NCBI GenBank assembly: GCA_027066435.1
Contig: JAMONX010000088.1
Span: 1 to 35,656 of the forward strand
Length of the DNA: 35,656 nt
Reading direction: 5' to 3'
Source: Campylobacterales bacterium
GTDB lineage: Bacteria; Campylobacterota; Campylobacteria; Campylobacterales; QNZT01
A model generated the notes under the pieces. That model was given only the letters and a program-made list of their open reading frames with translations, was not told the DNA's origin and searched no databases. How positions within the stretch are numbered: the first letter of the stretch is position 1; the number at the start of each line of letters is the position of its first letter. This document shows, piece after piece, positions 1 through 20,400 of the stretch. The position numbers were made by a program, and so were the translations under genes.

Positions 1-90
1 AATGAAGAGGTTATTGCTTAAAATGTAGATTTTATGGAAAAAAGCTAGTTATTTTTAAGAATCTAAGTGAGTTTTAAGGTGGCGACTCGC

Positions 91-180
91 ACACTAATAT
101 CATACCCCAGCGGGATTTGATATAATAGAGCTAACAACTTTATTTCATATCAAATATCATCAAGATTGAATATTAGTGTA
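91..180. repeat. 10-bp inverted repeat bracketing an orphan promoter
   Basis: The arm ACACTAATAT (91-100) is perfectly repeated in inverse orientation as ATATTAGTGT (171-180). About 70 bases lie between the arms, and a good -10 box (121-126) sits inside. No gene is visible on either strand here. The pair could form a long hairpin or be the ends of a very small element; neither is proven. Confidence 0.4.
117..126 (+). promoter_or_regulatory. Orphan extended -10 promoter
   Basis: TTGATATAAT has a perfect TATAAT (121-126) preceded by TGN. It is the same motif found upstream of several core genes in this window. No coding region follows for about 240 bases, so it either makes an RNA or is a leftover of a lost gene. 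Confidence 0.4.
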
Positions 181-371: not shown

Positions 372-664
372 ATGAAATTTGAATGGGATAACAACAAAGA
401 AAAAATAAACATACTAAAACATAGTGTTACTTTTGCACAAGCATCTTATGTTTTTGCTGATCCTTTTGTTTTAAACAAATTTGATGATGAACATTCAGAC
501 GATGAAGATAGATATGTTCTTTTGGGAAAAGTCTAAACAAAACTATACTCGTTGTTGTTCATACATTTAGAGATAAAGACGGCATGGAGTTTGTAAGAAT
601 TATAAGTGCAAGGAAAGCTACAAAGAATGAGAAAAAAGTATATCAAAAAAGGTGTCCAAAATGA
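372..664 (+). pseudogene. brnT: BrnT-family toxin, frame disrupted at codon 53
   Basis: BrnT toxins are small RelE-fold ribonucleases that stop growth until bound by BrnA. Here the first frame begins MKFEWDNNKEKIN, the usual BrnT start, and reaches RYVLLGKV before a TAA at 534-536. The rest of the family pattern, TILVVVHTF then VRIISARKATKNEKKVY, is in the -1 frame and ends with TGA at 662-664. Joining the frames at GGGAAAA (524-530) restores a 97-residue protein of normal BrnT length. The lesion is equivalent to one lost A in the run. The heptamer G_GGA_AAA also fits the X_XXY_YYZ pattern of -1 ribosomal slippage, so recoding cannot be excluded. A simple deletion or a base-calling error is more likely. 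Confidence 0.75.
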
Positions 665-943: not shown

Positions 944-1417
944 TTAGTGGTAAGGATTAAATTCCCTTTTATCTTCAAATTGATTTACTGTAAGCTTTGA
1001 GAACTTATCACAATAATCCCAAAAATCAGCCTTTATCTCTTCATCCATATCATAATTTTTAAGAGCTTCTCTCATGCATCCTAGCCACTCAACTCTTGCT
1101 TTTTCAGGAATTGAAAAGTCATCATGCACTCTTATCATATATGTATCTAAATCTCTGCCTCCAGTCTCTTCTTCATAGACCTTTGGACCTCCGCAAAGCT
1201 GTACAAAAAATTTTGTATTTTTAACTTTTATCTTATCAAACTCCTCTTTATCCTGAGGGAAAAAGTTATTGATATTACTTGTATATATTATTTCATAAAA
1301 ACTATACATTAACTCTCTCATCCCTTCTTCCCCACCGACTGCCTTAAAGAATTCTGGGCTTGGATTTTTAAAGTCAACTTCTTCTCCCTCTACTGTTGGA
1401 GTAATTGTATATTTCAT
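944..1417 (-). CDS. Truncated haemoglobin-like (2/2) globin
   Basis: This 157-residue protein has features of bacterial truncated globins: a helical core, the candidate proximal haem-ligand His98 in RVHDDFSI, an aromatic-rich FYEIIY segment (40-45) near the expected distal Tyr, and the WLGCM stretch (111-115) typical of group II members. The YEEETGG segment fits the family pattern. Known members bind O2 or NO and often protect against nitrosative or oxygen stress. The cytoplasmic role here is inferred from the family. It is a single gene, divergent from the HlyD-like gene, with a leftward -10 at 1437-1442 and a hairpin after the stop. Confidence 0.8.
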   Translation of the reverse strand: MKYTITPTVEGEEVDFKNPSPEFFKAVGGEEGMRELMYSFYEIIYTSNINNFFPQDKEEFDKIKVKNTKFFVQLCGGPKVYEEETGGRDLDTYMIRVHDDFSIPEKARVEWLGCMREALKNYDMDEEIKADFWDYCDKFSKLTVNQFEDKREFNPYH

Positions 1418-1436
1418 ATTTTACCTTTTTTGGTTA

Positions 1437-1442
1437 ATTTTA
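1437..1442 (-). promoter_or_regulatory. -10 box of the globin gene
   Basis: On the minus strand TGATAAAAT gives an extended -10 (TAAAAT) about 20 bases before the start codon. It faces the divergent promoter at 1475-1480, so the two share about 40 bases and could be co-regulated. Confidence 0.4.
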
Positions 1443-1470
1443 TCATAATTAAAAACTATATACAATAATT

Positions 1471-1480
1471 TTGATACAAT
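1471..1480 (+). promoter_or_regulatory. -10 box of the HlyD-like/molybdoenzyme operon
   Basis: TTTTGATACAAT holds TACAAT at 1475-1480 with the TGN extension, 24 bases before the GTG start. AAGGG lies between as the ribosome binding site. Confidence 0.5.
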
Positions 1481-1504
1481 ATAGAAATTTTTTAAGGGTA
1501 AGTT

Positions 1505-2299
1505 GTGAAAATATTTGTAATATTATTGTTTATTTTAATCTCTTTGGATGCTAGGGAGTATTATTCAAAAACTCAGCCAAGAGAGTTATTTGAGGTTAAA
1601 GCTTCTGTTGGTGGAAAAGTTGTCTATGTAGATAATTTACTAGAGGGAAAAGATAGTAATGATAGTTTGATTGTGAGAATTGATGATAAGATTGATATTG
1701 AGGATTTAAAAGCTTCAAAATTAAAATTGCAATATCTTACAAACAATATAAAATTTACAGAAAAAAGTTTAGCAAATAGTAAAAAGGTTGCATCTATTGA
1801 CAGTAATAATTATGAAAAAGTTAAAAACCTTGCATCCTATTCTAAAGTTCAAAAAGATGCTAAGTTACTTTCGATGATAAGATCACAAAATTCTCTCATA
1901 AGTATTCAAAGCTCTTTAGAAAATTTAAAAACTCAAAAAGCAGATTTAAGACTTAAGATAAAAATATTAAAAGATAAGATAGAGAAAAAAAATATTAAAG
2001 TAGGGAATGGAAATTTTATCTATAAAATCTATCCTAGTGTTGGAGATTATCTAAATCCTGGATCAAAACTACTTGATGTTTATGATGTCTCTTCTGCTTT
2101 GTTAGTTGTTTTTGTCTCCTTAGATGAGCTTAAAGAGTTAGATACAAAAACAATATATCTTGATGGAAAAGCAACAGATTATAAAATTCATAAAAAATGG
2201 AGAATTGCAGATAATATAAATATCTCTTCATATCGTGTTGAAATTATCATCGATAAACCAGAACAGTTTTCAAAACTTGTTAAGATAGAGTTTAAATAG
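1505..2299 (+). CDS. HlyD-like periplasmic adaptor protein
   Basis: This 264-residue protein starts at GTG with AAGGG upstream. Residues 1-16 are a signal peptide or N-terminal membrane anchor. A split barrel/lipoyl-like motif follows (ASVGGKVVYVDNLLEG, then DSLIVRIDDKID). A lysine-rich coiled-coil hairpin spans about 60-165, and a second half-barrel (SVGDYLNPGSKLLDVYDV) comes after. This is the layout of HlyD/MFP adaptors, which bridge an inner-membrane pump to an outer-membrane channel or act as periplasmic scaffolds. No pump or outer-membrane gene is adjacent. The stop codon directly abuts the molybdoenzyme gene, so the two are translationally linked. It is short for the family, and its partner is unknown. 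Confidence 0.6.
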   Translation: MKIFVILLFILISLDAREYYSKTQPRELFEVKASVGGKVVYVDNLLEGKDSNDSLIVRIDDKIDIEDLKASKLKLQYLTNNIKFTEKSLANSKKVASIDSNNYEKVKNLASYSKVQKDAKLLSMIRSQNSLISIQSSLENLKTQKADLRLKIKILKDKIEKKNIKVGNGNFIYKIYPSVGDYLNPGSKLLDVYDVSSALLVVFVSLDELKELDTKTIYLDGKATDYKIHKKWRIADNINISSYRVEIIIDKPEQFSKLVKIEFK

Positions 2300-4045
2300 T
2301 TGAAAAAAACTGCTTGTCCATTAGATTGTTATGATGCATGTTCTGTTATCTATGAAGATGAAAAGTTAAAAGGTGATTTTGACCATCCGTTTACTAAAGG
2401 GTTTTTATGTCCTAACCTAAATGGTTTTTTAAAAACTAAAAGGATCACAAAACCAACTTTTAATGGCAATACAATAACAATGGATGAGGCTTTAAAGATA
2501 TTGTCATCTACTTTAAAACAAAACCAAAATGAAAAAAGCCTATTTTTTAAAGGAAATGCAAACATGGGCAAGATGCAAAATGTAAGCAATCTATTTTTTC
2601 AACAGTATGGTTCTACATTTACAAAAGGTTCACTTTGTGATGGGGCAGGGGATTCGGGTGTGATTTCTGGAAGAGGATTAAATCTAGCTTTGCCAATATC
2701 ACAAATTGCAAAAAGTGAAGTAGTTGTTGTTTGGGGTAGAAATATAAGTATAACAAATTCACATATGTTAGATATCATAAAAGATAAAATCTTAATTGTC
2801 ATAGATCCAGTAAAAACAAAAATTGCAAAAATAGCTGATGTGCATCTACAGCTAAGACCAAGATCTGACTTTTCACTAGCAATTTTATTTGCTCGTTTAG
2901 CATCTTTAGAAGATATGGAAAACTTAGAATTTATAGATAAATATTGTGAAGAGTTTGACTACTTTGTAGATTTCTTTAGAAGTTTTGGTATCAAAAAGTT
3001 GTATGATGAAGTTGATGTAAGTGTAGATGCTATTATGAGGGCATTATCTCTTATGGATGGTAAAAAAGTTTCATTTTTAGTTGGAGTTGGAGTACAGAAA
3101 TATCTTCATGGAGATGAAGTCTTAAGGGCTATTGACTCATTTGCAGCAATGCTTGGGTTTTTTGGTAAAGAGGGGTGTGGAGTTAGTTATCTTAGTGATA
3201 GTTCAAATGGTTTTACAAATCCTTTCTCACACAAAAACCAAGCTATACCTATGCCAACAGTTGATTTTTCTGAATTTAAAACTGTTTTTATACAAGGATC
3301 AAATCCCTCTATTCAGCTACCAAATTCTGACAAAGTGTGTGAACAGTTAAGCAAAACTGATTTTATAATCTATTTTGGACTCTATGAAAATGAAACCTCT
3401 AAAATGGCAAATTTAGTACTACCGGCAAAAACATTTTTGGAAAAAGAGGATATTAGATTTTCATATGGAAGTGAATATATAGCTAAGATGCCAAAAATAG
3501 TTGAAAATAATTTTGGAATTAGTGAATATGAGTTAACACAGTACCTAAATAGAGAGTTTGGATATGATAAATTAAAGAGTGAACGAGAGTATGTGGAAGA
3601 GATTTTAAACTCAAACACTATTTTGAAAGATAGCTATTATCAATCTGCATCTTATGAAAAAATCCCTTATTCAGATGGTTTTTATACAGATGACAAAAAG
3701 TTTATTTTTATTGATGAAATTTATGGGAAAAATACTCTCTTAGATGAAGATGGTTATTATCTTATAACTCCAAAATCAAAACACTCACTAAATAGCCAAT
3801 TTAAAAGAGATCACTATATTTATCTATCAGCAGTTTTAGGATTTAAAGAAAAAGAGTTTGTAAAAGCTAGTTCAAAATATGGTGAAAGTATTTTTGAGGT
3901 TAGAGTAGATGATAATTTAAGAGAAGATTTAGTTTTAATACACTCTGGAGCAAAAGGTGTAAATAGACTCACTCCATCACTTAAAAGTGATGAAGGAGAT
4001 AGTGCAGTGTTTCAAGAGGTTAAGATAAAATTACAAAGAGTATAA
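2300..4045 (+). CDS. Molybdopterin-dependent oxidoreductase (bis-MGD family)
   Basis: This 581-residue protein belongs to the DMSO-reductase superfamily. Cys6, Cys10, Cys14 and Cys37 (pattern C-x3-C-x3-C-x22-C) match the N-terminal [4Fe-4S] site. GSLCDGAGDSG (111-120) lies where the family carries its molybdenum-ligand loop, making Cys113 a candidate ligand. VVWGRNISITNSH and the FIQGSNPSIQLPN-to-LVLPAKTFLEKED stretch are typical cofactor-binding signatures, and the C-terminal MopB barrel is present but short. There is no Tat signal, so it should be cytoplasmic. The start is TTG, directly after the HlyD-like stop. It is shorter than nitrate or formate enzymes (700+ residues). The substrate cannot be told from sequence, and no electron-transfer subunit is nearby. 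Confidence 0.8.
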   Translation: MKKTACPLDCYDACSVIYEDEKLKGDFDHPFTKGFLCPNLNGFLKTKRITKPTFNGNTITMDEALKILSSTLKQNQNEKSLFFKGNANMGKMQNVSNLFFQQYGSTFTKGSLCDGAGDSGVISGRGLNLALPISQIAKSEVVVVWGRNISITNSHMLDIIKDKILIVIDPVKTKIAKIADVHLQLRPRSDFSLAILFARLASLEDMENLEFIDKYCEEFDYFVDFFRSFGIKKLYDEVDVSVDAIMRALSLMDGKKVSFLVGVGVQKYLHGDEVLRAIDSFAAMLGFFGKEGCGVSYLSDSSNGFTNPFSHKNQAIPMPTVDFSEFKTVFIQGSNPSIQLPNSDKVCEQLSKTDFIIYFGLYENETSKMANLVLPAKTFLEKEDIRFSYGSEYIAKMPKIVENNFGISEYELTQYLNREFGYDKLKSEREYVEEILNSNTILKDSYYQSASYEKIPYSDGFYTDDKKFIFIDEIYGKNTLLDEDGYYLITPKSKHSLNSQFKRDHYIYLSAVLGFKEKEFVKASSKYGESIFEVRVDDNLREDLVLIHSGAKGVNRLTPSLKSDEGDSAVFQEVKIKLQRV

Positions 4046-4048
4046 AAT

Positions 4049-6079
4049 TTACTCTTTTTGATTTTTATCTTCATCCTTTTTCCCACTATCTTTTTTTTCC
4101 TCTTTTTTAGCTTGTTCTCTTTTTAGCTTCTCTTTTTTTAGTGCTTCTTTGATATCATCATCAGCACCAATATGATCTGCAAGTCTACTCTCCATATCAT
4201 TTTCTTTTTCAAACTCTTTTATGATTTTGACTACTTGTTTGCCATCTATAGTCTCAGTTTCATAAAGTGAAACCACCATATTTTCAATAGCATCGTGATA
4301 AGTTCTTAATGTTTTTAATACTATCTGGTACCTTTGACCTAAAAACTCTTTTATGTATGTATCTACATTTTCAGCCATTTTCCCACTATACTCTTTTGTA
4401 GTTCCACTTTGAAGAAATGTATTTCTCTGTTTTTCAAGAACCATAAGACCAGCAACATCAGTCATACCATAAATTCCAACCATAGCTCTTATGATATCAG
4501 TTGCTCTCTCTAAATCATTTCCAGCTCCAGTTGAAATTTCACCTATGAAAACTTCTTCAGCAGCTCGTCCACCCAACAGTACATCAACTTCAGCTATAAG
4601 CTCATGTCGTTGCATCATATACTTATTCTCTTCAGGAGTATTTAGTGTGTAGCCAAGAGCGGCTAATCCTCTTGGGACTATTGAAACTTTAGAAACTCTT
4701 TTAGCCCCTTTTGTAGTCTCTGCTATCAGTGCATGTCCACTTTCGTGATAGGCTACAATTCTTTTCTCTTTTGGATTTATTCGACGACTCTTTTTCTCTA
4801 GTCCAGCTATGGCTCTCTCTACCGCTTCAAAGAAATCTTTTTGTTCAACTTCTTCTTTATTTGCTCGTCCTGCTAGCAAGGCTGCTTCATTTATGATGTT
4901 GGCAAGATCAGCACCTGCAAGTCCTGCTGTCAATCGTGCTATCTCTTCCAAATCAACATCTTCAGCAATTTTGATTTTTTCAATATGAACTTTTAGTACT
5001 TGTATTCGACCTTTAAAATCAGGCTTATCAACCAACACTTGTCTATCAAATCGTCCAGGTCTTAAAAGTGCCGCATCTAAAACTTCAGGTCTATTTGTAG
5101 CGGCTAATATAATAACAGGAGATTGATCTGAATCAAAACCATCCATCTCTGCTAAAAGTTGATTAAGTGTTTGTTCTCTTTCATCATTTCCACCCATCAT
5201 TCCACCTGCTGCTCGACTCTTACCAATAGCATCAATTTCATCAATAAATATAATAGACGGAGCATCTTTTTTTGCATTTTCAAAAAGATCTCTAACACGG
5301 CTTGCACCAACTCCTACAAACATCTCTATAAAACTAGAACCTGAAACTGAGAAAAATGGTACATCTGCTTCTCCTGCAACTGCTTTTGCAAGTAGTGTTT
5401 TACCAGTTCCTGGAGGTCCTACTAAAAGTACACCTTTTGGGATTTTTGCTCCAAGGTTCATATATCTTTCAGGAAATTTTAGAAAATCAACAATCTCTTT
5501 AACTTCCTCTTTTGCTTCTTGAACACCTGCAACATCTGAGAATTTTACTTTTGGTTTCTCTGAATTGACAAGTTTTTTACTACTTCCCATTCCAAGGATT
5601 CCACCACCCATATTTTTTTGCATCCTACTTGTCAAAAACATCCAAATACCTAAAAATATAAATATAGGGATTACCCAAGTAAATAGCAACTCTTCTAACC
5701 AGTTTGTCTCATTGTATCCGCCATAAGGGATTTTGTTTTGATCTAAAAGTGGAATTAGCGCACTATCCTCTCCGACTTTTTTAACATAGTATATCTTCTT
5801 TACGGCTCCTTTATCAGATACACCTTTAAGAGTTGTTTGACCAATCGCAACATATGTTATCTCACCTTTTTTGATAAGCTCTTTTAGTTCATAATAATTG
5901 ATTTTTTCTGTTTTTGTAGCTTTAGTTGATAAGCCTTGTTCATTTGTAACCATTCCATCTGCTGGCTCAATTGTATATTTAAATAGTAAAATAATTACTA
6001 ATGAAAATATTGCAAATATAAACAATGGATTTTGGTTAAAAAAATTATTGTTTTTATTATCTCTATTATTTTGAGACAT
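4049..6079 (-). CDS. ftsH: FtsH ATP-dependent zinc metalloprotease
   Basis: This 676-residue membrane protease degrades misfolded membrane proteins and short-lived regulators. Two transmembrane segments (about 19-34 and 131-150) flank a periplasmic domain. The AAA module has Walker A GPPGTGKT (221-228), Walker B IIFIDEID (276-283) and the second region of homology ([19 protein letters not shown]). The zinc site HESGH is at 445-449, where many family members read HEAGH. The C-terminus is a charged lysine/glutamate tail. It is the last gene of the leftward string and follows prmA by 9 bases. Its stop lies 3 bases from the convergent molybdoenzyme stop, with no obvious terminator. Confidence 0.97.
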
Positions 6080-6088
6080 TTTTTTCCT

Positions 6089-6898
6089 TCATATTTTTCT
6101 TAGCACTAAAGTGTGCCACTCTTTTTTTTGTATAGTCTCTATTATCTCAAAATCATAAAATTTTTGAACTATGGAGTCATAATACCTGTTTATTATACCT
6201 GATAGAATTAAAATTCCGCCTCGTTTTACAGATTGTTTTAAATCTTTGTTTATCATAATAATGACATCTGCAATGATATTTGCTATTACAATATCATATT
6301 GCGTTTGGCTCATATGTACCGAACCTATCCATGACTTGTTTATTTTAGAGTTATTAAGGCTAAAATTATCTATGGAGCTTTTTATTGATACTTCATCAGT
6401 ATCGCATATATCTACAATAGCTCCTTTTTTGTCACCAGCAATTGCAAGTATTCCGCTACCACATCCAACATCTAAAAGGGTGAAATTTGGCTTGACATAT
6501 TTGTCAATGCATAAAAGACAAGAGGCTGTACTTTCATGATGACCAGAGCCAAAGGCAAGAGCAGGGTCTATGATGATATTTGTAAGATTTGTTTTTTCTC
6601 TCTCCCACTGGGGTCTTATATAAAAAGAGCCAACTTCAATAGGTTTTATTGAATTTTGATATTTGCTAATCCAATCTTCATTTTTCAATTTAATAAGTTT
6701 TGTTTTTATAGGTATTTGAAGTTTTTGTGAAAGTTGTTTTGTTGCCCACTCTATGTCATCTAATGACTCACTTGCTCTTACGATAAGTGAGTCATTTTTC
6801 TCTTCAAGAGCACTGTTTGTAATTTCTAAAAGAAACGAGCTAAAAATCTCTAAACTATTTTCTGGTATTACTGTAAGTTCATAATAATATTCGTTCAT
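6089..6898 (-). CDS. prmA: Ribosomal protein L11 methyltransferase PrmA
   Basis: PrmA trimethylates lysines and the N-terminus of ribosomal protein L11 using S-adenosylmethionine. Over 269 residues it shows an N-terminal L11-recognition domain, the hallmark DPALAFGSGHHEST (111-124) and the SAM-binding motif LLDVGCGSGILA (141-152). NIIADVI forms the catalytic-side strand. It is slightly shorter than the E. coli enzyme (293), from a shorter N-terminal domain. It sits between cheY and ftsH with 13- and 9-base gaps, the same neighbours as in Campylobacter. Confidence 0.93.
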   Translation of the reverse strand: MNEYYYELTVIPENSLEIFSSFLLEITNSALEEKNDSLIVRASESLDDIEWATKQLSQKLQIPIKTKLIKLKNEDWISKYQNSIKPIEVGSFYIRPQWEREKTNLTNIIIDPALAFGSGHHESTASCLLCIDKYVKPNFTLLDVGCGSGILAIAGDKKGAIVDICDTDEVSIKSSIDNFSLNNSKINKSWIGSVHMSQTQYDIVIANIIADVIIMINKDLKQSVKRGGILILSGIINRYYDSIVQKFYDFEIIETIQKKEWHTLVLRKI

Positions 6899-6911
6899 TG
6901 CATCCTAAAGT

Positions 6912-7274
6912 TTAAAGTACAGCTTCGAGTTTTTCTTTTAAGACTTGTGGTGTAAAAGGTTTTACTATATAGTTATTTACACCTGCTTTTAAGGCAGTTA
7001 TAACTTCAGTCTTCCCACCCTCAGTTGTAACCATGATTATCGGTAAATCTTCATACTTAGCTTCAGCCCTTACCTTTTTCACAAGTTCCAATCCATTCAT
7101 CTCAGGCATGTTCCAATCAGTTACTAAGATATCGATGTCAGAGTTTTCACCCATAACTTTCCAAGCAACTGCACCATCTTCTGCCTCTAAGATCTCTTTA
7201 TGTCCTAGTCTTCCTAGTGTATTTTTGATAATTCTTCTCATTGTTGAGCTATCATCTACTACTAAAAATTTCAT
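6912..7274 (-). CDS. cheY: Chemotaxis response regulator CheY
   Basis: This 120-residue single receiver domain has the acidic pair DD (7-8), the phospho-acceptor Asp53 in VTDWNMPEMNG, the switch Thr in MVTTEGG and the conserved Lys in YIVKPF. Phosphorylated by CheA, CheY binds the flagellar switch protein FliM and changes rotation direction. It has no output domain. The RRIIKNTLGRLG helix is typical of CheY proper. It lies in the leftward string after hisA (25-base gap) and before prmA. Confidence 0.9.
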   Translation of the reverse strand: MKFLVVDDSSTMRRIIKNTLGRLGHKEILEAEDGAVAWKVMGENSDIDILVTDWNMPEMNGLELVKKVRAEAKYEDLPIIMVTTEGGKTEVITALKAGVNNYIVKPFTPQVLKEKLEAVL

Positions 7275-7299
7275 ACTCTTCCTTTAAACTATTTTAATT

Positions 7300-8013
7300 T
7301 TATCCTAATGCAACTTTAAAAGCCTCCTTCAAATCAAGAGTACCTTCATAAAATGCTTTTCCTACTATCACGCCAGATACTTTACCACTCTCTTTAAGTG
7401 CTATTATATCCTCTATATCTCTCACACCGCCACTTGCAATGGTATCAATCCCTGAAACTTTTGCAATCTCTAGTGTAAAATCAACATTGACACCACTTAA
7501 AGTACCATCTTTTCCAACATCAGTACAGATCAGAGCTTCAACCCCCGCATCTGCAAACATTAAGGCTAAATCTGTAGCTTTCATTGTAGATTTTTCTGCC
7601 CATCCCTCAACCGCTACAAAGCCATCAATTGCGTCTATTCCAACTGCAATTGGATACTTTTTTGCTACAGTTTTTACAAAATCGGCATTTTTCAAAGCTA
7701 CTGAACCCAAAATGATTCTATCTACTCCAAGATCTAAATATCTTTTTATAGTATCCTCATCTCGGATGCCACCACCAAGCTCTATTTGTATATCGCACAT
7801 TTTACGAATTTTTTTAATCTCTTCTAGATTTTTTGGAATTCCTGCAAATGCACCGTTAAGATCTACAAGATGAAGCCATGTTGCTCCTATCTTTTCAAAC
7901 TCTTGTGCAACCTTCCATGGTTCATCATTATAAATTTTTGCACTATCCATAAGACCTTTTGTAAGTCTAACTGCTTTTCCATCTTTTAAATCAATCGCTG
8001 GAAGTATATCCAT
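7300..8013 (-). CDS. hisA: ProFAR isomerase HisA (histidine biosynthesis)
   Basis: HisA isomerises ProFAR to PRFAR, the fourth step of histidine synthesis. The 237-residue TIM barrel has the catalytic Asp8 ([11 protein letters not shown]), the first phosphate site ([10 protein letters not shown]) and the second half-barrel [12 protein letters not shown] with a second catalytic Asp, then IASGGVRD. The length is normal. It lies 12 bases after hisH. hisF, whose product uses PRFAR together with HisH, is not in this window. Confidence 0.95.
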
Positions 8014-8025
8014 GTCTACTTATCC

Positions 8026-8637
8026 TTACATTTTCGTAAAATTTTTTAATATCTTCAATCCATTTTCATGTGATTTTTCAGGGTGGGGTTGTAAACCATA
8101 AATATTATCTCTATTTATCATACTTGCAAATTCATATCCATAGTGGGTAGTTGCGAGTGTAAACTCTTCATCACACTTCGCATGATAACTATGTACAAAA
8201 TATAGATAAAATTCCTGTGGTAAATCTTTAAATAGTGGATTATCTCTTTTTATAAAAAGTTCATTCCATCCCATGTGTGGAATTTTAAGAGGTGTTGAAA
8301 AAAGAGCTTTATCGAATTTTCTAACAATTCCAGGTATTAAAGCTAAGCCTTTATGTTCTCCAAACTCATCTGAACTTTCAAGTAAAAGTTGCATCCCAAG
8401 ACAAATTCCAAGAAGAGGTTTGCCACTATTTGCAAACTCTTTTATAGCTTCATCCATTCCACATGATTTTAGATGCTCCATTGCATCTCCAAATGCACCA
8501 ACTCCAGGTAGTATAAGTTTGTCATAATTAGAGATTAAATCAGGGTCTTTTACTATCCTAACTTCGCATCCTAGTTTTGAAAAGGCATTTTGAACCGATC
8601 TCAAATTTCCCATATTGTAATCAACTACGGCAATCAT
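8026..8637 (-). CDS. hisH: Imidazole glycerol phosphate synthase glutaminase subunit HisH
   Basis: HisH releases ammonia from glutamine and channels it to HisF. The 203-residue class I amidotransferase has the nucleophile Cys79 in LLGICLGMQ, the oxyanion strand LPGVGAFGD and the His185/Glu187 pair in LQPHPEKSH. The VDYNMGNLRSV start is typical. The gene is 10 bases after the exonuclease gene and 12 before hisA, so all are probably co-transcribed. Confidence 0.95.
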   Translation of the reverse strand: MIAVVDYNMGNLRSVQNAFSKLGCEVRIVKDPDLISNYDKLILPGVGAFGDAMEHLKSCGMDEAIKEFANSGKPLLGICLGMQLLLESSDEFGEHKGLALIPGIVRKFDKALFSTPLKIPHMGWNELFIKRDNPLFKDLPQEFYLYFVHSYHAKCDEEFTLATTHYGYEFASMINRDNIYGLQPHPEKSHENGLKILKNFTKM

Positions 8638-8647
8638 AATAAGCCCT

Positions 8648-9421
8648 TTATAACTCTTTTTTTATCCCATCAATAAAAATTTGGCTATATGATTTATCTG
8701 TAGGAATTTTTTCACTCATCTTATCTAAAAAGTTTAAATAATCCTCTAAAATTATGTTCCCTTTTAAAAGTTCATACTTTAGATAGAGCCAATAAGTATT
8801 TAAAACATCGCTTTCACAGTACTCTTTAATTCTCTCTATCTCTTTATCATAGTATAGTGAAAAAACCATATCACCACTTACATCAAATTTACCAGGAATC
8901 CCCATCATCGTGCAAAGAGTATCAAGCTTTAAACCTCTAACTGCTCCAAATTCACCGATATGATCCATTAAGTCAACATGGAACTTATCTGTAAATCTAT
9001 ATCTATAATTATCCCATTTGCTTTTGTTTAACATTTTATTTTCTTTTTCAAAATAGGCATGACAAGAGAGGTTGTATTTCATAGCTCTTACCATTAGCAT
9101 TGGCATATCAAATGCTCTTCCATTAAAGCTTACAAGTTTGGGGCTATGTTTGTCTATAAATTTTAAAAAGTTTTTAATCATCTCTTTTTCAGTGTCGCCC
9201 TCAATAGAGCTTACTTTTTGAAAAGAACCATAATCATCAGCAATGACTGCAGAGATAGATACGACTTGATGATAAGCTATCGGTAAAAATGAACTTCCAC
9301 TCTTTTGCTCTTGAAGTTCAAATGCTTTTTGGCTAATATCCCTATCATCTCCACTTAAATTAAATGTATTTCGTATAAGTGTTGCATCTGGAATAGTTTC
9401 GCAATCAAATACGCATATCAT
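8648..9421 (-). CDS. Predicted PolB-like 3'-5' exonuclease
   Basis: This 257-residue DnaQ-like protein has the DEDD pattern: Asp6 and Glu8 (FDCETI), Asp105 (FNGRAFDMPML) and Asp205 (EYCESDVLNTYWLY). This matches the 'predicted 3'-5' exonuclease related to PolB' family, a stand-alone proofreading-type domain without a polymerase. The substrate (DNA or RNA) is not known. Its ATG overlaps the stop of the upstream helical-hairpin protein as ATGA, so the two are translationally coupled. The function is inferred from catalytic residues alone. Confidence 0.8.
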   Translation of the reverse strand: MICVFDCETIPDATLIRNTFNLSGDDRDISQKAFELQEQKSGSSFLPIAYHQVVSISAVIADDYGSFQKVSSIEGDTEKEMIKNFLKFIDKHSPKLVSFNGRAFDMPMLMVRAMKYNLSCHAYFEKENKMLNKSKWDNYRYRFTDKFHVDLMDHIGEFGAVRGLKLDTLCTMMGIPGKFDVSGDMVFSLYYDKEIERIKEYCESDVLNTYWLYLKYELLKGNIILEDYLNFLDKMSEKIPTDKSYSQIFIDGIKKEL

Positions 9422-9987
9422 TGTTTATCTTTATCTCGTTTAATTTTTTTGCTAAATTCAGTATGACCACCAGCTGCTAAAAGTTTTGCTTGACTTACCC
9501 AATCTTCTTTATCTATTCTACCTTTAAAGACTAAATAATCTTCAATCCAATCTATGTTTTCAGGTGTCCATTGTGCAATTTGTTCAAAATTATAAATCCC
9601 AAGTTCATGTAAAACTTCCTCCAATTTTAAGCCGATTCCACTTATCTCTTTAAGATCATCTAGCTCTTTATCATCAGGTTCTGCTATGACGCTTGGTCTA
9701 ACACCTATCTCTTGACCAATTGCTCTTTCATTATCATTTAACGGCATATTTGCTATTGCACTTGCCATGCCAGTAGATGCTTTTGCTTCTGGATTATTTA
9801 CAATACCATATAAATCTTCATTATATCGCTCACCTTCATATGCATTTAGTCTTGCCTTTTCTATCCCATAATCATCATTGCCACATTTGCTCATTTTCCC
9901 AATTAGATAACCTATTATCCCACCCAAAAGTGCAGCGATTACCAGACATAAAATGATTTGCATCCCTAATTCTATTAAACTATCCAT
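9418..9987 (-). CDS. Membrane-anchored protein with helical-hairpin (GIG) domain
   Basis: This 189-residue protein has one N-terminal membrane helix (about 8-30, GxxxG-rich), a polar linker and a C-terminal domain (about 108-172) reading LDDLKEISGIGLKLEEVL, then a FEQIAQWT segment and FKGRI.KEDWVSQAKLL. This domain is known as a fusion or tail on some L21 and NADH dehydrogenase subunit proteins. Its GIG hairpin resembles helix-hairpin-helix nucleic-acid-binding units. It is flanked by an OmpA-like protein (2-base gap) and a DEDD exonuclease (4-base overlap). Its role is unknown. A link to membrane-tethered nucleic acid handling is a guess from the neighbours. Confidence 0.55.
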   Translation of the reverse strand: MDSLIELGMQIILCLVIAALLGGIIGYLIGKMSKCGNDDYGIEKARLNAYEGERYNEDLYGIVNNPEAKASTGMASAIANMPLNDNERAIGQEIGVRPSVIAEPDDKELDDLKEISGIGLKLEEVLHELGIYNFEQIAQWTPENIDWIEDYLVFKGRIDKEDWVSQAKLLAAGGHTEFSKKIKRDKDKQ

Positions 9988-9989
9988 AT

Positions 9990-10901
9990 CTATTCTCCAG
10001 TTACTTTAAATTCTACTCTTCTATTAATCTGCTTGTTTGATAAAGAGCTATTTTTGACTAATGGCTTATTTTCACCATAACCGATTGCTTTCAATCTTTT
10101 AGAAGATATCCCTTTTTTAACAAGATAACTTTTAATTGCATCTGCTCTTTTTTGGCTAAGTATTTGGTTGTTTTTAGCTGTTCCATCTGAATCAGTATGA
10201 CCACCTATCTCTATATTTACATTTTTATATTTGTTCAAAATCCCATAAACTTCATCTATCGTTTTTTTACCTTTAGCTGTTAAAGACTCTTTTGCATATA
10301 CAAATTCTACTTTTTTTAGTTTAATTAAATTATCTATTTTTGCCTGAATCTCTTTTTTTGAAGGCTCTTTTTGTTTGACTTTGTTAGGTTTTTTTATCTC
10401 TTTTATTGATACTTTATTATCAACATGCAAATCACCAACCATAAGTGCTTTGCTTCCAATTGAGTGTTTTATTTTCTCATCTTCAACGATGCCATCAATT
10501 GTAAAACTACCGTTTGAATATTCAAGATAGCCTTGTTCAAATTTTAAAAAATCATCTGTTATAGTTTTTATCATATCAAATAACTTTTCATTTTTTGCAT
10601 TTTTATCGATAATAATCATACCAACATTAACATTTTTAGATGTTTTTTTGTATTTAGCTTTTAGAATTTCAAGATTTTCATTAGATGTAAAAATTCCCGA
10701 AATTTTTATATCATCACCATCTTTTATAATTTTTATATTAATGTCTTTTTTTGCAAGTGGAGCCACAACTTCTGCATTAGATGCAATATTGTTAACTGTT
10801 TTGCCAATTGTCATCTCTTGTTCTAGCTTATTCCAGACACAAAAAGCCATAAAAAAGAGTAAAAGCCATATCCATAGCCACATCCATTGGCGACGAGTCA
10901 T
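9990..10901 (-). CDS. OmpA-family peptidoglycan-binding membrane protein
   Basis: This 303-residue protein starts with a tryptophan-rich N-terminal membrane anchor (about 8-23), has a middle region (30-170) of alternating strand-helix units resembling BON-like repeats (VNNIASNAEVVAPLAKKDIN), a lysine-rich linker, and a C-terminal OmpA/MotB domain (about 190-300). The domain carries IEIGGHTDSDGT and the closing INRRVEFKV motif that bind diaminopimelate in peptidoglycan. It is probably inner-membrane tethered, reaching the cell wall. An internal promoter lies upstream, with AAGGA eight bases before ATG. It is first of the exonuclease/hisH/hisA/cheY/prmA/ftsH run. Confidence 0.75.
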   Translation of the reverse strand: MTRRQWMWLWIWLLLFFMAFCVWNKLEQEMTIGKTVNNIASNAEVVAPLAKKDINIKIIKDGDDIKISGIFTSNENLEILKAKYKKTSKNVNVGMIIIDKNAKNEKLFDMIKTITDDFLKFEQGYLEYSNGSFTIDGIVEDEKIKHSIGSKALMVGDLHVDNKVSIKEIKKPNKVKQKEPSKKEIQAKIDNLIKLKKVEFVYAKESLTAKGKKTIDEVYGILNKYKNVNIEIGGHTDSDGTAKNNQILSQKRADAIKSYLVKKGISSKRLKAIGYGENKPLVKNSSLSNKQINRRVEFKVTGE

Positions 10902-10930
10902 ATTGATTCCTTAATTAAGTATATCGCATA

Positions 10931-10939
10931 ATTGTATCA
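10931..10939 (-). promoter_or_regulatory. Internal promoter before the OmpA-like gene
   Basis: On the minus strand TTTTTGATACAAT supplies TACAAT (10931-10936) with a TGN extension, about 30 bases before the start. A second possible -10, TATACT (10918-10923), is too close to the ribosome site to be favoured. Confidence 0.45.
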
Positions 10940-10966
10940 AAAATAGTTTTAAAACAAAAAATTATT

Positions 10967-13228
10967 TTACTTTTTTAGAATGAATGTGAAGAAATTTGAT
11001 TTAAAGTTAATATTTCCAATTTTTTTGTATTGAATCGATGCCCCTTCAAAGTTTTTTTCTTGCTGATAGAGCAGTCCCAAAGCATATCTACTCTCAAAAT
11101 TAGAACTATCTGTAAGTTTTGAAAGTTCAAGAAGTGCTACAGCATTTGCATAGTGTTTTGCACCAATAGCGGCAACCGAAGCTAGAAAAAGAGTATGAGT
11201 GTCTTTTTGTTTATATTCATCAATGAGCTTATTATAAATACCGTAAGCTTCTTCAAAATTTTGATTATAAATAAGAATAAGTCCAAGAGATTGAAGGAGA
11301 GAAATTGAAGGGTTACTTCTATTTTCTAATAACTCTTTACTTCTTGAGATGATACCAGCTATACTAAGAGCTCTTACGAATAACTCTTTTGGTAGAAACC
11401 CGCCAAAATAGAGAGGTTTAAAATCAAGGTTATCTTTTGTTATAGTTTTTTGTATAGCTTTTGCATACTCTTTAATTTGAGCTTTATCATTTGTTGCATC
11501 TATATAGAGTATATTTGAAACTAAATCGCCAGACATTAAATCTTTAAGTTTTTTTGCACTCTCTTGGTACATTTTTGTATCATTTCTACTATAAGAGAGT
11601 AGTAGGTTTATTGAGTGAAAAAATCTGTTTTGATTTGCATCTAGATAGCCAACATTAAGAGCCAATGAACCAAGAGCAATCTCTAAAAGAGCCTGAGTAG
11701 ATTTTTCCTCTATTTGAACTCTTTGTTTTTCAAGCTCTTTAGTAGGTATATCTTTATTTATGAGTTTTGCACAAAATGATTGAAATACAAGTGCATTATG
11801 ATTATGTGAATCTAGTGAGTAACTTCTTTTAAAATGTTTATAAGCATTTAGAAAATCAAAAATTTGTGCATATGTAAGTGCTAAGTTGTAGTGAAGTACA
11901 GAGTGTGTAGGATAGAGTTTAATTGCTTTTTTTAGTATATCATTTGCTTCATAAACTTTATGCTCAGTTAAATATTTTAAGGCTTTTGTTATCTCTAAAT
12001 CAATTTTTGATATTGCTGCAGAATCTCTTAAATAGTCAAGTGCTTGTGTAGTTTTTTCTATCTCTATATTTTTTGCACCTTTTATAATGTTGTCAATACT
12101 CAAATTTGAGTTAAAAACTTTATAAGGTGCATAATAAAATAGTATAGAAAACTTATATTTGTCATCCAAAAATAGTCTATCTTTAAACTCTTTTTGTGCG
12201 GCGATTGGATCAAAAAGAGATTTTTTAAGTTGTACAGATATAGGATAAGTACTTAGGGAGTCTTCTTTGTATGTATCATATGTTGATTTTAAGATTTCAC
12301 CAGAATCTGACATCAATCCAAGTCTATTTTTAACTAAAGCTAATGCGACATTTGCCTTTATCGGTTCAACTCCTTGAAATTTTGCACTCTCTAGTGAGTT
12401 ACTTGCTAAAATATATTCACCTGCTCTTGCTTGTAAAAGACCAATAGTAAGATAGTTTTTTGGATTATCTATCTTTTGTATAAAATTTATGGCCAATAGA
12501 TTATTTTTTAGTGATGATAATGCTTTTGCTGCAATAAAGTTTTGTTCATTTTTATAAAATTCTGAACTTGGATTTTTGATAGAGATTATACTTTCAAGTG
12601 GTTCTTCTTTATAGTAACTTATAAGAGTCCTATAATATGAGTAAAGTTTATTATTTGTAATATACGGCAAATATTTTTGTGATAAGGCAAGGTAGTGTTT
12701 AAAAGTATCGACTTCACCTAAATTTAAAGCTGATACTGCAGCATTTAAAGCACTTGCACATTTAAGTTCATTATTTTGCATCGCTTTTTCAAAAAATTCA
12801 ATTGCAACTTTATACTTTTTCTCTTTTAATTTTGCAACAGCAATATTATAAAATGAGAGTGATTTGTTGTAGTGTGAAAGTTCTTCATATATTTTTAGAG
12901 CCTCTTTTTTATCACCTTGATTGTAAAGTTTGTCTGCTTTTTGGATTAGCGTTTGTGCTTTGCTACTCTCTTTTGGGGTTAGTTCTTTGTTTTGTATGTT
13001 TTTTATTATATTTGAAGTGTTAACTTCAAAAGTTTCTTCCGACTTACTCTTTTTCTTTTGTATATAAAAGTAACCAAAAATCATCACAAAAAGAAGAATT
13101 AAAAGAGTAAGAATTAATATAATATAGTATATTTTTTTATTATTTTGTTTTTTATTATCCTGTTTTTGCTCAGATTGCTGTTCTTCTTCTAGCTCTTCAT
13201 CATCCAGTGAAAAGAACTCTTCAGCCAT
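10967..13228 (-). CDS. Large TPR protein, possible flagellar-motor PflD homologue
   Basis: This 753-residue protein has an acidic cytoplasmic N-terminus, one membrane helix (about 33-56), then a long all-helical region with TPR-like repeats (clear at 90-180 and 430-490, e.g. YNIAVAKLKEKKYKVAIEFF and HSVLHYNLALTYAQIFDFLN). The topology places the repeats in the periplasm. It directly follows serS with one base between. In Campylobacter jejuni the gene next to trpS-serS (Cj0390) also encodes a large TPR protein, which I recall being described as the motor component PflD. The homology is inferred from gene order, size and topology, so treat the flagellar role as provisional. Confidence 0.7.
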   Translation of the reverse strand: MAEEFFSLDDEELEEEQQSEQKQDNKKQNNKKIYYIILILTLLILLFVMIFGYFYIQKKKSKSEETFEVNTSNIIKNIQNKELTPKESSKAQTLIQKADKLYNQGDKKEALKIYEELSHYNKSLSFYNIAVAKLKEKKYKVAIEFFEKAMQNNELKCASALNAAVSALNLGEVDTFKHYLALSQKYLPYITNNKLYSYYRTLISYYKEEPLESIISIKNPSSEFYKNEQNFIAAKALSSLKNNLLAINFIQKIDNPKNYLTIGLLQARAGEYILASNSLESAKFQGVEPIKANVALALVKNRLGLMSDSGEILKSTYDTYKEDSLSTYPISVQLKKSLFDPIAAQKEFKDRLFLDDKYKFSILFYYAPYKVFNSNLSIDNIIKGAKNIEIEKTTQALDYLRDSAAISKIDLEITKALKYLTEHKVYEANDILKKAIKLYPTHSVLHYNLALTYAQIFDFLNAYKHFKRSYSLDSHNHNALVFQSFCAKLINKDIPTKELEKQRVQIEEKSTQALLEIALGSLALNVGYLDANQNRFFHSINLLLSYSRNDTKMYQESAKKLKDLMSGDLVSNILYIDATNDKAQIKEYAKAIQKTITKDNLDFKPLYFGGFLPKELFVRALSIAGIISRSKELLENRSNPSISLLQSLGLILIYNQNFEEAYGIYNKLIDEYKQKDTHTLFLASVAAIGAKHYANAVALLELSKLTDSSNFESRYALGLLYQQEKNFEGASIQYKKIGNINFKSNFFTFILKK

Positions 13229-13229
13229 G

Positions 13230-14477
13230 TTATTTTATGTAATCTTTAAGCACTTTTGGAATCTCTATAGTCCCATCAGCTTTTTGATAGTTTTCCATTA
13301 TAGCTATCAGTGTTCTTCCAATTGCTAAAGATGAGCCATTTAGAGTATGTACTAGCCTATTTTTCTTGCCATCTTTATATCTTATTTTCGCTCGTCTTGC
13401 TTGAAAATCTTTTGTATTTGAGATAGAACTTATCTCTCTATACCTATTTTGACCAGGTAACCAAACTTCTAAATCGATAGTCTTAGATGCAGAAAAACCT
13501 AAATCCCCACCACAAAGTAATACCATCCTATGAGCTAATCCAAGAGAGGTTAAAAGATCACTTGCACAATCTACCATCTGTTGAAAAACTTCTTCACTTT
13601 GCTGTGGCGTTGTTATACATACTAACTCTACTTTTCCAAATTGATGTTGGCGAATCATACCTCTTGTATCTCTTCCAGCACTTCCAGCTTCTTTTCTAAA
13701 ACAAGCCGTATAAGATGTAAGTTTTATCGGAAGAGCATCAGTAGCTAAAATTTCATCACGAAAAAGATTTGTAACTGGAACTTCAGCAGTTGGTATGAGA
13801 TATAACTCTTCACCCTCTATTTTAAAAAGATCATCACCAAATTTTGGAAGCTGTCCAGTTCCTTCAAGAGACTCTTTATTTGCGATAAATGGGACAGAAA
13901 CCTCTTTGAACCCACGAGATGCATTAAAATCTAACATATAATTAACTAAAGCTCTCTCTAGTTTAGCGGCATCATTTTTAAGAACTGAAAAGCGACTTTT
14001 GGCAAGTTTTACGCCTCTTTGAAAATCGATAAGTTCCTGTTTTGCATCTATATCCCAATGCTCTTTAGGTTCAAAATCAAAACTAGGAATATTAAGAACT
14101 TTTTTAATTTCTACATTATCCTCTTCATCTTCGCCTTCAGGTACACTATCATCTGGAATATTTGGAACTTCTAGAGCAATCAAAGATAAGTTCTCTTCTA
14201 ACTCTCTTACTACCTCTGTAGCAGATGTAATCTTTTGTTTATTTTCATCAAGTTGGGATTTTAGCTCATCTATGTTTTTTCCCTCTTTTTTGTAGATTGG
14301 AAAAAGTTTACTTTTTGCATTTTGTTCAGCTTGTAAAGCTTCTAAAATATTTTTTTTCTCTTTTAGTTTTAGAGATATCTCTTTTAGGGGTGCTAAAAGT
14401 GTTTCATCAACTTTTTTCTTTTTTAACTTTTGTCTTATCTCTTCAAAATTGTTTTGTAACTCTTTTATATCAAGCAT
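13230..14477 (-). CDS. serS: Seryl-tRNA synthetase SerS
   Basis: SerS charges tRNA-Ser. The 415-residue class II enzyme has the N-terminal coiled-coil tRNA-binding arm (about 1-105), motif 2 ([20 protein letters not shown]) and motif 3 ([17 protein letters not shown]). The length is typical of the family. It overlaps the trpS stop by one base and is followed by the TPR gene one base away, so the three are one transcript. Confidence 0.97.
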
Positions 14478-15451
14478 TATCTTTTCCCTCGTCTTATACC
14501 AATTGCATCTTTAATTATTTCCATTTTTTCATAAGCTATTTTTCTAGCTCTCAAAGCTCCATCTTCTAAGATATCACAAACTTCATCTCTATTATTATGA
14601 TAATAGGCTCTTTTCTCTCTTGCCTCTTCAAAATAGTTCCAAATTTTCTCTTTTAGATATAGTTTAAAATGTCCATGACCTTCGCCACCTTTTTTATAAC
14701 GATCTTTTAACTCTTCTAACTCATCGCTTGTTAAAAAATGTTTAGCTAATGCAAAAACATTACAGTTTTCATACTCTTTTGGCTCTTCTAAAGCAACACT
14801 TTGGGTTATAATTTTTCCTGTTTGTTTTTTGAGTGCTTTTTCGGTTGTAAAGATATCAATGGTATTACCATAACTTTTACTCATCTTTGCTCCATCAATT
14901 CCAGGAAGAGATGCAACATTTTCATCAACTTTAAACTTAGGTAAAGTAAAAAGTTCCCCGTGGTCATTGTTGAATTTTATTGCTATATCTCTTGTTATCT
15001 CAACATGTTGAATTTGATCTTTACCAACAGGCACAATTTGTGAATCATAAAGCAAAATATCTGCCGCCATCAAAACAGGGTAAGAGAATAGGGCATGATT
15101 TGGAGTTTTTCCTTTGGCAACTTTATCTTTATAGCTATGAGCTCTCTCTAATAATCCCATAGGTGTGTAAGAGGAGAGAATCCAATATAACTCAAGTACT
15201 TCTTTGACATCAGATTGTACCCACATAATAGTTTTTGCTGGATTTATGCCAAGTGAGAGATAACTAATAGCGGCCTCTATAGTGTTTTCTCTAAGTTGTT
15301 TTGCATCTTTTAAAGTTGTTAAAGCGTGATAGTCTGCAATAAACATAAAAAGTTCATTAGAGTTTTGAAGGGAAACCATCTGCTTTATAGAACCAAAATA
15401 ATTTCCAATATGCAAAGTTCCTGATGGTTGTATACCTGTAATTACTCTCAT
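14477..15451 (-). CDS. trpS: Tryptophanyl-tRNA synthetase TrpS
   Basis: TrpS charges tRNA-Trp. The 324-residue class I enzyme has the HIGH-equivalent HIGN in [16 protein letters not shown] and the KMSKS loop in [10 protein letters not shown]. It is first gene of the leftward string, with AAGGA ten bases before ATG and an extended -10 at 15483-15488. No leader peptide or T-box is visible upstream. Confidence 0.97.
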
Positions 15452-15482
15452 GTCTCATTTATCCTTAACTTATAATCGCATG

Positions 15483-15492
15483 ATTATATCAA
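15483..15492 (-). promoter_or_regulatory. trpS operon promoter
   Basis: On the minus strand TTTTGATATAAT gives TATAAT at 15483-15488, about 32 bases before the start codon. This is the same extended motif as at several other promoters here. Confidence 0.55.
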
Positions 15493-15526
15493 AATTATTT
15501 GATTTTTCGGTTAGCTATATACTTTC

Positions 15527-15600
15527 TTGACAAAAATAGAGAAAAGGTAAAATAAATCATTCAAGTTTTATAAATGTTGACCGATATAGTTTATATATAA
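15527..15600 (+). promoter_or_regulatory. Candidate promoter region of the subtilase gene
   Basis: TTGACA (15527-15532) is followed after 15 bases by TAAAAT (15548-15553). A second pair, TTGACC (15577-15582) and the AT-rich run ending near 15600, lies closer to the gene. Both spacings are short of 17, so which is used is uncertain. GGAG precedes the ATG at 15617. Confidence 0.3.
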
Positions 15601-15616
15601 AATAGCGGAGAAACTA

Positions 15617-17605
15617 ATGGTAAAGAAACTTTCAATTGTAACTATAAAAGTCCTTCTAGGATTGGCATTGCTTGATAAGAGCGTTTCAGCTTTGACATTA
15701 AATGGTCATGAAGTTGATTTTAAAAAGGAAAATATTGATACATTAACAATAAAAACAAGGGCTTTAGATAATAGGCATAAAGCAATTATTATAAAATTTG
15801 ATAAACCATTAGATGCAAAAATAAAAGAGAAATTTTTTCGTGAAGGTGTTAGTTCAATAATTTATGCAGGGGAACTTAGTTACTACTTTTATGCAAAAGA
15901 GTCTGTTTTAAACAAGCTCGATTTTGAAAATTATGGTTTTTTAGAAAAAACTGATATGAGAAGTGAATATAGAGTAAAAGATGGTGGAATTGCTACTTTT
16001 GATTCATCTGCTTATCAGAGTTTTAATGTTTTATTTTTGGTAGAATTATCAAAAAGTGAGATTGAGTCATATCTTTTAGAAAACTTTGTAGATGCAATAG
16101 TACTAAAATCTTTACCATCTCTAAGAGAGGCAAAACTAAAAGTTGCTGCAAGTGATGTAGAAAAGTTAAAACAGTTACCTATAATTCAATACATGGATAA
16201 AAGTTTATCTCTTGTAACTGTAAACGGTAAAAAAGAGACAAGAAATAAAACAACAGCAAATAACTTAAATCTTACTACACTTTGGTCAAATAGTTATAAT
16301 CTTAATGGTGAAAACATGGATATAGGTGTAGTTGATGGGGGTAATGTCTTGGCAACTCACCAGGAGTTTAATGAAGATGGTATAAGAAGAGTAATAAATA
16401 GATCAAATAGCGATGTAAATTCTCATTCTACTCATGTTGCTGGTACTATTGCTGCTGACGGTGATAAAAGTAGAGCTAGGGGTATGGCAAATAAATCTGT
16501 AATATATAGTTATGGATTTAGTGAAGTTGCATTTGCAGAGTCAATCTTAAAACTTTATAGAAAAGATGGGGTTCTTCTATCAAATCACTCATATGGATAT
16601 AGTGATAAGATAAGACTTGGAGAGTATGATAGTGATGCTGCATCTCAAGATGCAGCTGTAAGTAATAATCCATTTTTAAATGTTTTTCAAGCTGCTGGAA
16701 ATGATGGTGATGTAAGTGGTTATGCTGATTTTGGAATCATAAAGGGACCTGGAAATTCAAAAAATATTTTTACAATTGGTGCACTAAATATCAACTCAAC
16801 TAGTGTAGCATCTCTTAGCAGTGCAGGACCTGTAAATGATGGACGAATTAAGCCAGATTTAGTTGCTCGTGGAGAGTATATTAACTCTACATCAAGTAAT
16901 TCTGATGATAGTTATGCCACAATGAGCGGAACTTCTATGGCTACACCTGCTGCTACAGGAGCGGCTGCACTTATCATGCAACAATATAAAAGAACCACAG
17001 GCAGATACGATATTAGACATGACCTTTTAAAATCTATCATGATAAATACGGCGGTTGATAAGGGTACTGTAGGACCTGATTATAAAGCTGGTTTTGGGAT
17101 GATTGATGCAAAAGCGGCTGTTGATGTTGTAAAAGCTATAAAAAACAGAAACTCTCTTGTTTCAACTGATACTCTCTCTAATAATACAAAAAATAGATAT
17201 AGTTTTCAAGTTACACAAAATACACCATTTAAAACAACAATAAGCTGGGTAGACCAAGCGGCAAACCCTGCTAACTCTGCAACTTTAGTAAATGATCTTG
17301 ATATGATACTTATAAATAGTGATAGTGGAAAAATTTATTACCCATACACTTTAGATAAAAATAATCCAGACACAAAAGCAGTTACAGACAAACCAAATAG
17401 AGTAGATAATATCGAGCAAATTGAGATATCAAATTTACCAAAGGGAAATTATGAGTTACAAATAACGGGACACCAAATCATTAGCCCTTCACAAGATTTT
17501 GCTATCGCATCCAATATAGAGATTTTCCAAAATAGCAATATTGGGATGCTAAGAGCTAGTAAGTTGAGAAATTTTGCTAAAGTGATTGATAGGGGAATAT
17601 TGTAA
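15617..17605 (+). CDS. Secreted subtilisin-like serine protease (S8)
   Basis: This 662-residue protein has an N-terminal signal-like segment (about 5-25, ending VSALT). A region of about 180 residues follows that could be a propeptide. The S8 catalytic domain has Asp240 (MDIGVVDGG), His273 (SHSTHVAGTIAA), the oxyanion Asn362 (QAAGNDGD) and Ser440 (SGTSMATPAATGAA). A C-terminal beta-rich domain (about 515-640, with TTISWVDQAANP and DLDMIL) resembles the P-domain/jelly-roll often fused to subtilases. There is no membrane helix or sorting signal at the end. It probably degrades extracellular or periplasmic protein. It stands alone between divergent trpS and convergent lepA, 8 bases from the lepA stop. 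Confidence 0.87.
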   Translation: MVKKLSIVTIKVLLGLALLDKSVSALTLNGHEVDFKKENIDTLTIKTRALDNRHKAIIIKFDKPLDAKIKEKFFREGVSSIIYAGELSYYFYAKESVLNKLDFENYGFLEKTDMRSEYRVKDGGIATFDSSAYQSFNVLFLVELSKSEIESYLLENFVDAIVLKSLPSLREAKLKVAASDVEKLKQLPIIQYMDKSLSLVTVNGKKETRNKTTANNLNLTTLWSNSYNLNGENMDIGVVDGGNVLATHQEFNEDGIRRVINRSNSDVNSHSTHVAGTIAADGDKSRARGMANKSVIYSYGFSEVAFAESILKLYRKDGVLLSNHSYGYSDKIRLGEYDSDAASQDAAVSNNPFLNVFQAAGNDGDVSGYADFGIIKGPGNSKNIFTIGALNINSTSVASLSSAGPVNDGRIKPDLVARGEYINSTSSNSDDSYATMSGTSMATPAATGAAALIMQQYKRTTGRYDIRHDLLKSIMINTAVDKGTVGPDYKAGFGMIDAKAAVDVVKAIKNRNSLVSTDTLSNNTKNRYSFQVTQNTPFKTTISWVDQAANPANSATLVNDLDMILINSDSGKIYYPYTLDKNNPDTKAVTDKPNRVDNIEQIEISNLPKGNYELQITGHQIISPSQDFAIASNIEIFQNSNIGMLRASKLRNFAKVIDRGIL

Positions 17606-17613
17606 TATTTTCA

Positions 17614-20337: not shown

Positions 20338-20400
20338 GCATGACCTTTGTAGTTTTTTATTTTATATTAACTAAAAATGACTTTGAGTTTTGTGGGGTGA

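Follow-up and report, generated by a model that had tools for sequence, protein, structure and literature searches.

A recent loss of one base has probably inactivated the brnT toxin gene of a toxin-antitoxin pair in the window (the whole 35,656-nucleotide stretch of DNA analysed here), the slip-type heptamer at the resulting frame break being a by-product of that loss. Among the three principal explanations that we considered, this was the most likely; an error of assembly or sequencing ranked next, and functional -1 slippage ranked last.

Structure of the brnT locus

The brnT gene (PF04365) starts with ATG at 372-374, as read directly from the sequence, and its 5' part in the original frame (372-536, + strand) runs for 54 codons to TAA at 534-536, giving a first-frame product of 54 residues. 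The 3' part lies in the -1 frame (530-664, + strand), with 44 codons (530-661) and a stop at 662-664. The Pfam BrnT_toxin profile (77 positions) matched the two halves separately and in two frames: positions 1-48 by the first piece (E 1.1e-12, 48.5 bits) and positions 49-77 by the second (E 7.5e-8, 33.0 bits). Membership in the family was therefore found over the length of the profile, as two pieces in two frames, with only the first piece passing the gathering score of 34.5. That the halves of the toxin lie in different frames, as stated in the original prediction, was borne out by both the direct reading and the separate profile matches, and the sequence as given does contain the frame break.

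The in-frame codons around the break are TTG (522-524), GGA (525-527), AAA (528-530), GTC (531-533), and TAA (534-536). GGGAAAA at 524-530 accordingly sits in X_XXY_YYZ phase, as G_GGA_AAA, and the halves meet at this heptamer in the -1 slippage phase that had been proposed; a second such heptamer, TTTGGGA (521-527), overlaps it, the two together occupying 521-530 (+ strand) at the frame change. The stop expected shortly after the heptamer was located one codon beyond it (TAA, 534-536), and both frames are open across 22 bases (~7 codons). A -1 slip would join the 53 codons ending with the heptamer to the 44 that follow, and the resulting product of 97 residues would have the normal length anticipated for it, which is that of five aligned intact relatives. 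A phased heptamer, a near 0-frame stop, and a -1 frame that continues the protein are thus present as at a programmed -1 site, and all of these features speak for slippage.

The stop of brnT at 662-664 (in the -1 frame) overlaps the start, at 661, of an antitoxin-like gene (661-870, + strand; 69 amino acids in a single frame), and this gene also follows brnT in relatives. No significant match to it was found in Pfam, NCBIfam, or PADLOC, and 661-867 was without a Pfam match at E ≤ 1, so that no Pfam antitoxin model identified it as BrnA; its putative assignment as the antitoxin was made from its position and its linkage to brnT in relatives. Its dN/dS value against five relatives was 0.06-0.17. 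Upstream, a perfect inverted repeat (337-361, + strand) with 10-base arms at 337-346 and 352-361 (100% complementary) and a 5-base spacer runs into a TATAAT-like -10 box, with brnT just downstream. By eye, the palindrome and TATAAT were common to the nearest full-length orthologues (G008, with one mismatch, G012, G017, and G021), and the palindrome was not seen in more distant clade members. From these sequence features, 337-361 is probably the operator/promoter of the toxin-antitoxin pair.

Two further features were observed near or beside the pair. A terminator-like hairpin on the - strand (879-908; 13 pairs, by consensus match only) follows the globin-like gene at 944-1417 (- strand), in the intergenic space after the antitoxin gene. 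The genome of the window also contains, on the - strand of another contig (L195, G000:C26), an antitoxin-like gene with 43% identity, and no brnT-like ORF of at least 35 amino acids was seen by eye directly before it.

Comparison with homologues

The gene pair was searched for as DNA in 99 genomes, and brnT by its profile in 398 genomes of the order. In the former, the pair was found with DNA identities of 90% (G008 and G012), 86% (G017), 85% (G021), and 74% (G053). In all five, including the nearest two at 90%, brnT was unshifted and in a single open frame, and alignment with these relatives revealed that the window gene is one base short at its Gly-Lys codons. In the latter, the best 12 BrnT matches were single frames of 97 codons, and the window gene ranked 13th as the first that was split. 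The named genomes contained at least 45 loci; among the matches listed, 11 had at least 64% identity, 10 of which were full-length in one frame, and the remaining one (L122) was split in the opposite direction (+1).

A comparison set of 18 sequences (16 distinct, with two identical pairs), chosen as full-length and 97 codons each, was used for the heptamer; clade members outside this set were L122, G005, G097, and G306. Only one of the 16 distinct full-length sequences had GGGAAAA at the equivalent codons, namely L139 (Desulfococcaceae bacterium HSG9 by title), and it was unshifted. Together with the single-frame relatives, this indicates that neither the shift nor the heptamer is conserved, and that the heptamer exists without the shift. 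The original prediction had itself named single open frames and an unconserved heptamer in homologues as grounds for abandoning slippage, and this is the result that was obtained; a programmed -1 site whose shift and slip site are kept among homologues was not found here.

The same broken sequence was absent from viral contigs in an exact 26-base search, and no relative was encoded in 600 pattern-matching viral stretches. BrnT matches were found in 788 plasmid records and in 2 phage records, in every case at less than 60% identity; in 781 of the plasmid records, a single place accounted for at least 80% of the query.

Residues missing from the first-frame product

According to excerpts of a review (PMC5086665), Asp6, Glu7, Lys9, Arg41, and Glu78 of Brucella BrnT are important for RNase activity. 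In an alignment with the Brucella protein (3u97), Asp6, Lys9, and Arg41 corresponded to identical residues at positions 6, 9, and 47 here, all before the break. Position 7 is not Glu in this protein nor in the five intact relatives, and it was therefore non-discriminating. On the other hand, Glu78 (by a 3u97 numbering offset derived here) aligned with residue 87, which is past the stop at 534-536, and no single protein read from the sequence in frame combines these residues. Since the Glu78 equivalent lies beyond the stop, the 54-residue product lacks it, together with the latter half of the BrnT domain, and is presumably inactive.

The locus resembles the BrnT/BrnA type II system of Brucella abortus (PDB 3u97; PF04365) in its toxin family and in the identical counterparts of Asp6, Lys9, and Arg41, and here, too, a toxin gene is accompanied by an antitoxin-like gene, with a palindrome that may serve in autoregulation; BrnAT is described as autoregulated in the same excerpts (PMC5086665). 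It differs in that the toxin is out of frame, the 0-frame product is without the Glu78 equivalent, and the neighboring gene has no Pfam match at E ≤ 1.

Loss of the toxin in the clade

When the antitoxin was used as the query against 398 genomes, 18 matches reached E ≤ 1.6e-17. A full-length toxin gene preceded the antitoxin in 12 of the 18, and the toxin was broken, gutted, or undetected in the other six (the window, G005, G097, G306, G317, and G361); the antitoxin frame was intact in five of these six, including the window. In G005, which belongs to the same genus as the window, the start and an internal stretch of the toxin gene are missing. The first half is missing in G097 and also in G306, where it is accompanied by a frame change (by eye, -1 at the Gly-Lys codons and without a heptamer). 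G317 retains a toxin scrap recognized by eye, without a profile match, and offers a partial view only, the contig ending ~205 bases before the antitoxin frame. In G361, no toxin was found and the antitoxin itself has stops. The window therefore shows the same pattern of a broken brnT with an intact antitoxin as other Campylobacterales (G005, G097, G306, and G317) and, with one base missing and the rest undamaged, would represent an earlier stage than these four.

Over 4 kb elsewhere in the window, the main matches to five congeneric genomes had 67-77% identity, whereas the gene pair was 90% identical in another genus. This difference suggests that the toxin-antitoxin pair may have moved horizontally.

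Age of the break

The dN/dS value of the 3' half of brnT, in its own frame, was 0.07-0.19 against four relatives, compared with 0.09-0.35 among those relatives themselves, and residue changes unique to the window numbered two in the 5' half and none in the 3' half. This absence of decay means that the break is very recent, not real, or harmless to protein production; it counts against a base loss to the extent that a recent loss, an error of assembly, and a shift that leaves protein production going all fit it equally.

An assembly or sequencing error, by which the missing base would be an artefact near the contig end and brnT would be whole in the organism, is possible, but distinctly less likely than a real loss. 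The undecayed 3' half agrees with it, and no relative has the same shift with this heptamer. brnT also begins only 371 bases from the contig end in a draft of 159 contigs, the window being the whole of contig C88, and, in excerpts of a survey (PMC3711429), unclustered BLASTp-validated frame transitions are expected to be sequencing errors and not genuine indels. Such errors were not apparent elsewhere: ORFs of the same genus (from stretches of five genomes) covered 19,874 of the 35,656 window bases, mostly 947-20358 with brnT outside, and no true frame break was found in these covered bases, the sole frame-changing match pair being an ORF antisense to two genes (8451-8725). In the clade, moreover, a broken toxin is commonly found next to an intact antitoxin, one case being the gutted copy of G005 in the same genus, which also argues against an error. 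We infer that the organism itself has lost the base.

When 1-371 and 372-870 were used as queries to look for another copy, or a variant from another strain, within the genome of the window (G000), only partial matches of at most 94 bases were found besides the window itself. Window positions 1-94 recurred with 90% identity over 94 bases at G000:C30:8376-8469 (in L196), and this stretch at the contig start may belong to a repeat at which assembly stopped.

Slip motifs and other split brnT loci

The slip motif at the frame break of brnT is only mildly unusual. Across the 10,161 codons of 26 further genes in the window, 134 in-frame X_XXY_YYZ heptamers were counted (1.3% per codon), and GGGAAAA itself occurred twice in frame. 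By this density, the chance of at least one such heptamer in seven codons is ~9%, that is, about one seven-codon stretch in 11 has the motif. Taken alone, such a motif beside a break in the frame is weak evidence, and the loss of a base between two runs can generate one.

Profile searches of fetched loci revealed 10 loci with BrnT pieces in different frames (G306 being outside this count), of which seven break by -1 and three by +1. A phased heptamer was present within the frame overlap in four of the seven -1 breaks (the window, G276, L150, and G005) and in none of the three +1 breaks; since G005 has an internal deletion, the motif can occur by chance.

The locus most like that of the window is a more distant brnT in G276 (L089, G276:C30, bases 276-553), with a -1 break at a run of eight A (A_AAA_AAA in phase) near the equivalent codons and an antitoxin-like gene after it; its pieces, if joined, would give a product of approximately normal length. 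In L122 (Lysobacterales MAG, JAMOMK010000023.1; 1501-1789 and downstream), the toxin breaks by +1 a few codons past the site in the window, and the antitoxin also changes frame near an A run; these breaks are possibly assembly errors. Two Leptospira interrogans plasmids (L193 and L194) had a BrnT match in two pieces, one annotating two overlapping BrnT CDSs and the other only the second, with a frame change that is +1 by coordinates and earlier in the gene than in the window. G008 contains a second brnT (L101, G008:C36:18300-19000), which is truncated after ~37 profile positions and then passes, in another frame, into antitoxin-like sequence.

Besides IS3 and IS911, dnaX is another case of programmed -1 frameshifting at X_XXZ_ZZN heptamers. 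The window shares with IS3 and IS911, as presented in excerpts of PMC4066793, a heptamer in phase and a near stop, but differs from programmed -1 frameshifting in having no predicted stimulatory structure, no Shine-Dalgarno-like motif, and no shift conserved in relatives. The 100 bases past the heptamer (531-630) folded no better than shuffled sequences in pseudoknot-free folding (z +1.06; 170 of 200 shuffles were at least as stable), being weaker than the shuffle mean, so that the downstream stimulatory structure that had been envisaged was not predicted. Moreover, none of the Shine-Dalgarno-like motifs listed in these excerpts (PMC4066793) was seen by eye in the 30 bases before the heptamer, and the site therefore lacks both a structure downstream and such a motif upstream.

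Functional -1 slippage at G_GGA_AAA (or the overlapping T_TTG_GGA), which would yield a little 97-residue toxin and limit its dose, is very improbable. The 3' half of brnT is still conserved, and G276 is a possible second case; in addition, G_GGA_AAG, which differs by one base from the heptamer of the window, ranks with the most efficient E. coli motifs provided that stimulators accompany it (excerpts of PMC4066793). However, the same excerpts report that many heptamers shift weakly without a stimulatory element, and that, in E. coli, shift-prone motifs lacking stimulators gave between 2.1 and 10 times the value seen without a motif (mean 0.055%). The unconserved shift and heptamer, and in particular the full-length L139 with an identical but unshifted heptamer at the same codons, also argue against it. 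Slippage has little positive evidence beyond the motif, and the proposal that it controls toxin dosage was not supported, given the single-frame homologues, the unconserved heptamer, and the absence of a predicted stimulatory structure. A combined explanation, in which the break is real and the heptamer makes a "leaky" BrnT at a very low dose, with G276 as a second independent case and these codons as a recurrent place of throttling, is likewise very improbable; if slippage did make toxin, the dose of a type II toxin would be controlled in an unusual way. A paper on MazEF, in the parts available, discusses a proposed -1 shift and states that a slip motif is absent there. Transcriptional slippage was set aside for the window, the A run being four long against the A runs over 7 cited in excerpts of PMC3711429; the run in G276 is eight. 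Finally, it is scarcely credible that re-initiation yields the second piece as a peptide of its own, which then assembles with the first into a split toxin: the conserved residues of the family are kept in both halves, but the -1 frame is open from 512 and its first ATG, GTG, or TTG is the ATG at 584 (residue 72 of 97), so that re-initiation would omit much of the second half.

Discussion

In the favored explanation of a recent base loss, a single base would have been lost at the conserved Leu-Gly-Lys codons of brnT, and translation would now end at 534-536 with a 54-residue fragment that is missing the latter half of the BrnT domain. A G run and an A run would have been joined by the loss, presumably creating GGGAAAA, the heptamer being a result of the break and not a device that bridges it. 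The original prediction had regarded a one-base deletion in a homopolymer as the simpler explanation. Its first part, the loss of one base, was upheld by the alignment, in which the window is one base short, while the homopolymer was not established: the missing base lies where two runs meet and is assignable to neither. Besides the undecayed 3' half, the -1 break of the second, distant brnT (L089 in G276) at a slip-type run near the equivalent codons counts against this explanation.

The antitoxin gene and the upstream palindrome are intact, which would place the locus on the path seen in relatives, where the toxin is lost and the antitoxin kept, and the kept antitoxin may still be useful. 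The finding would then be an ordinary one: a toxin gene early in decay with its antitoxin surviving, which is a common outcome in the clade.
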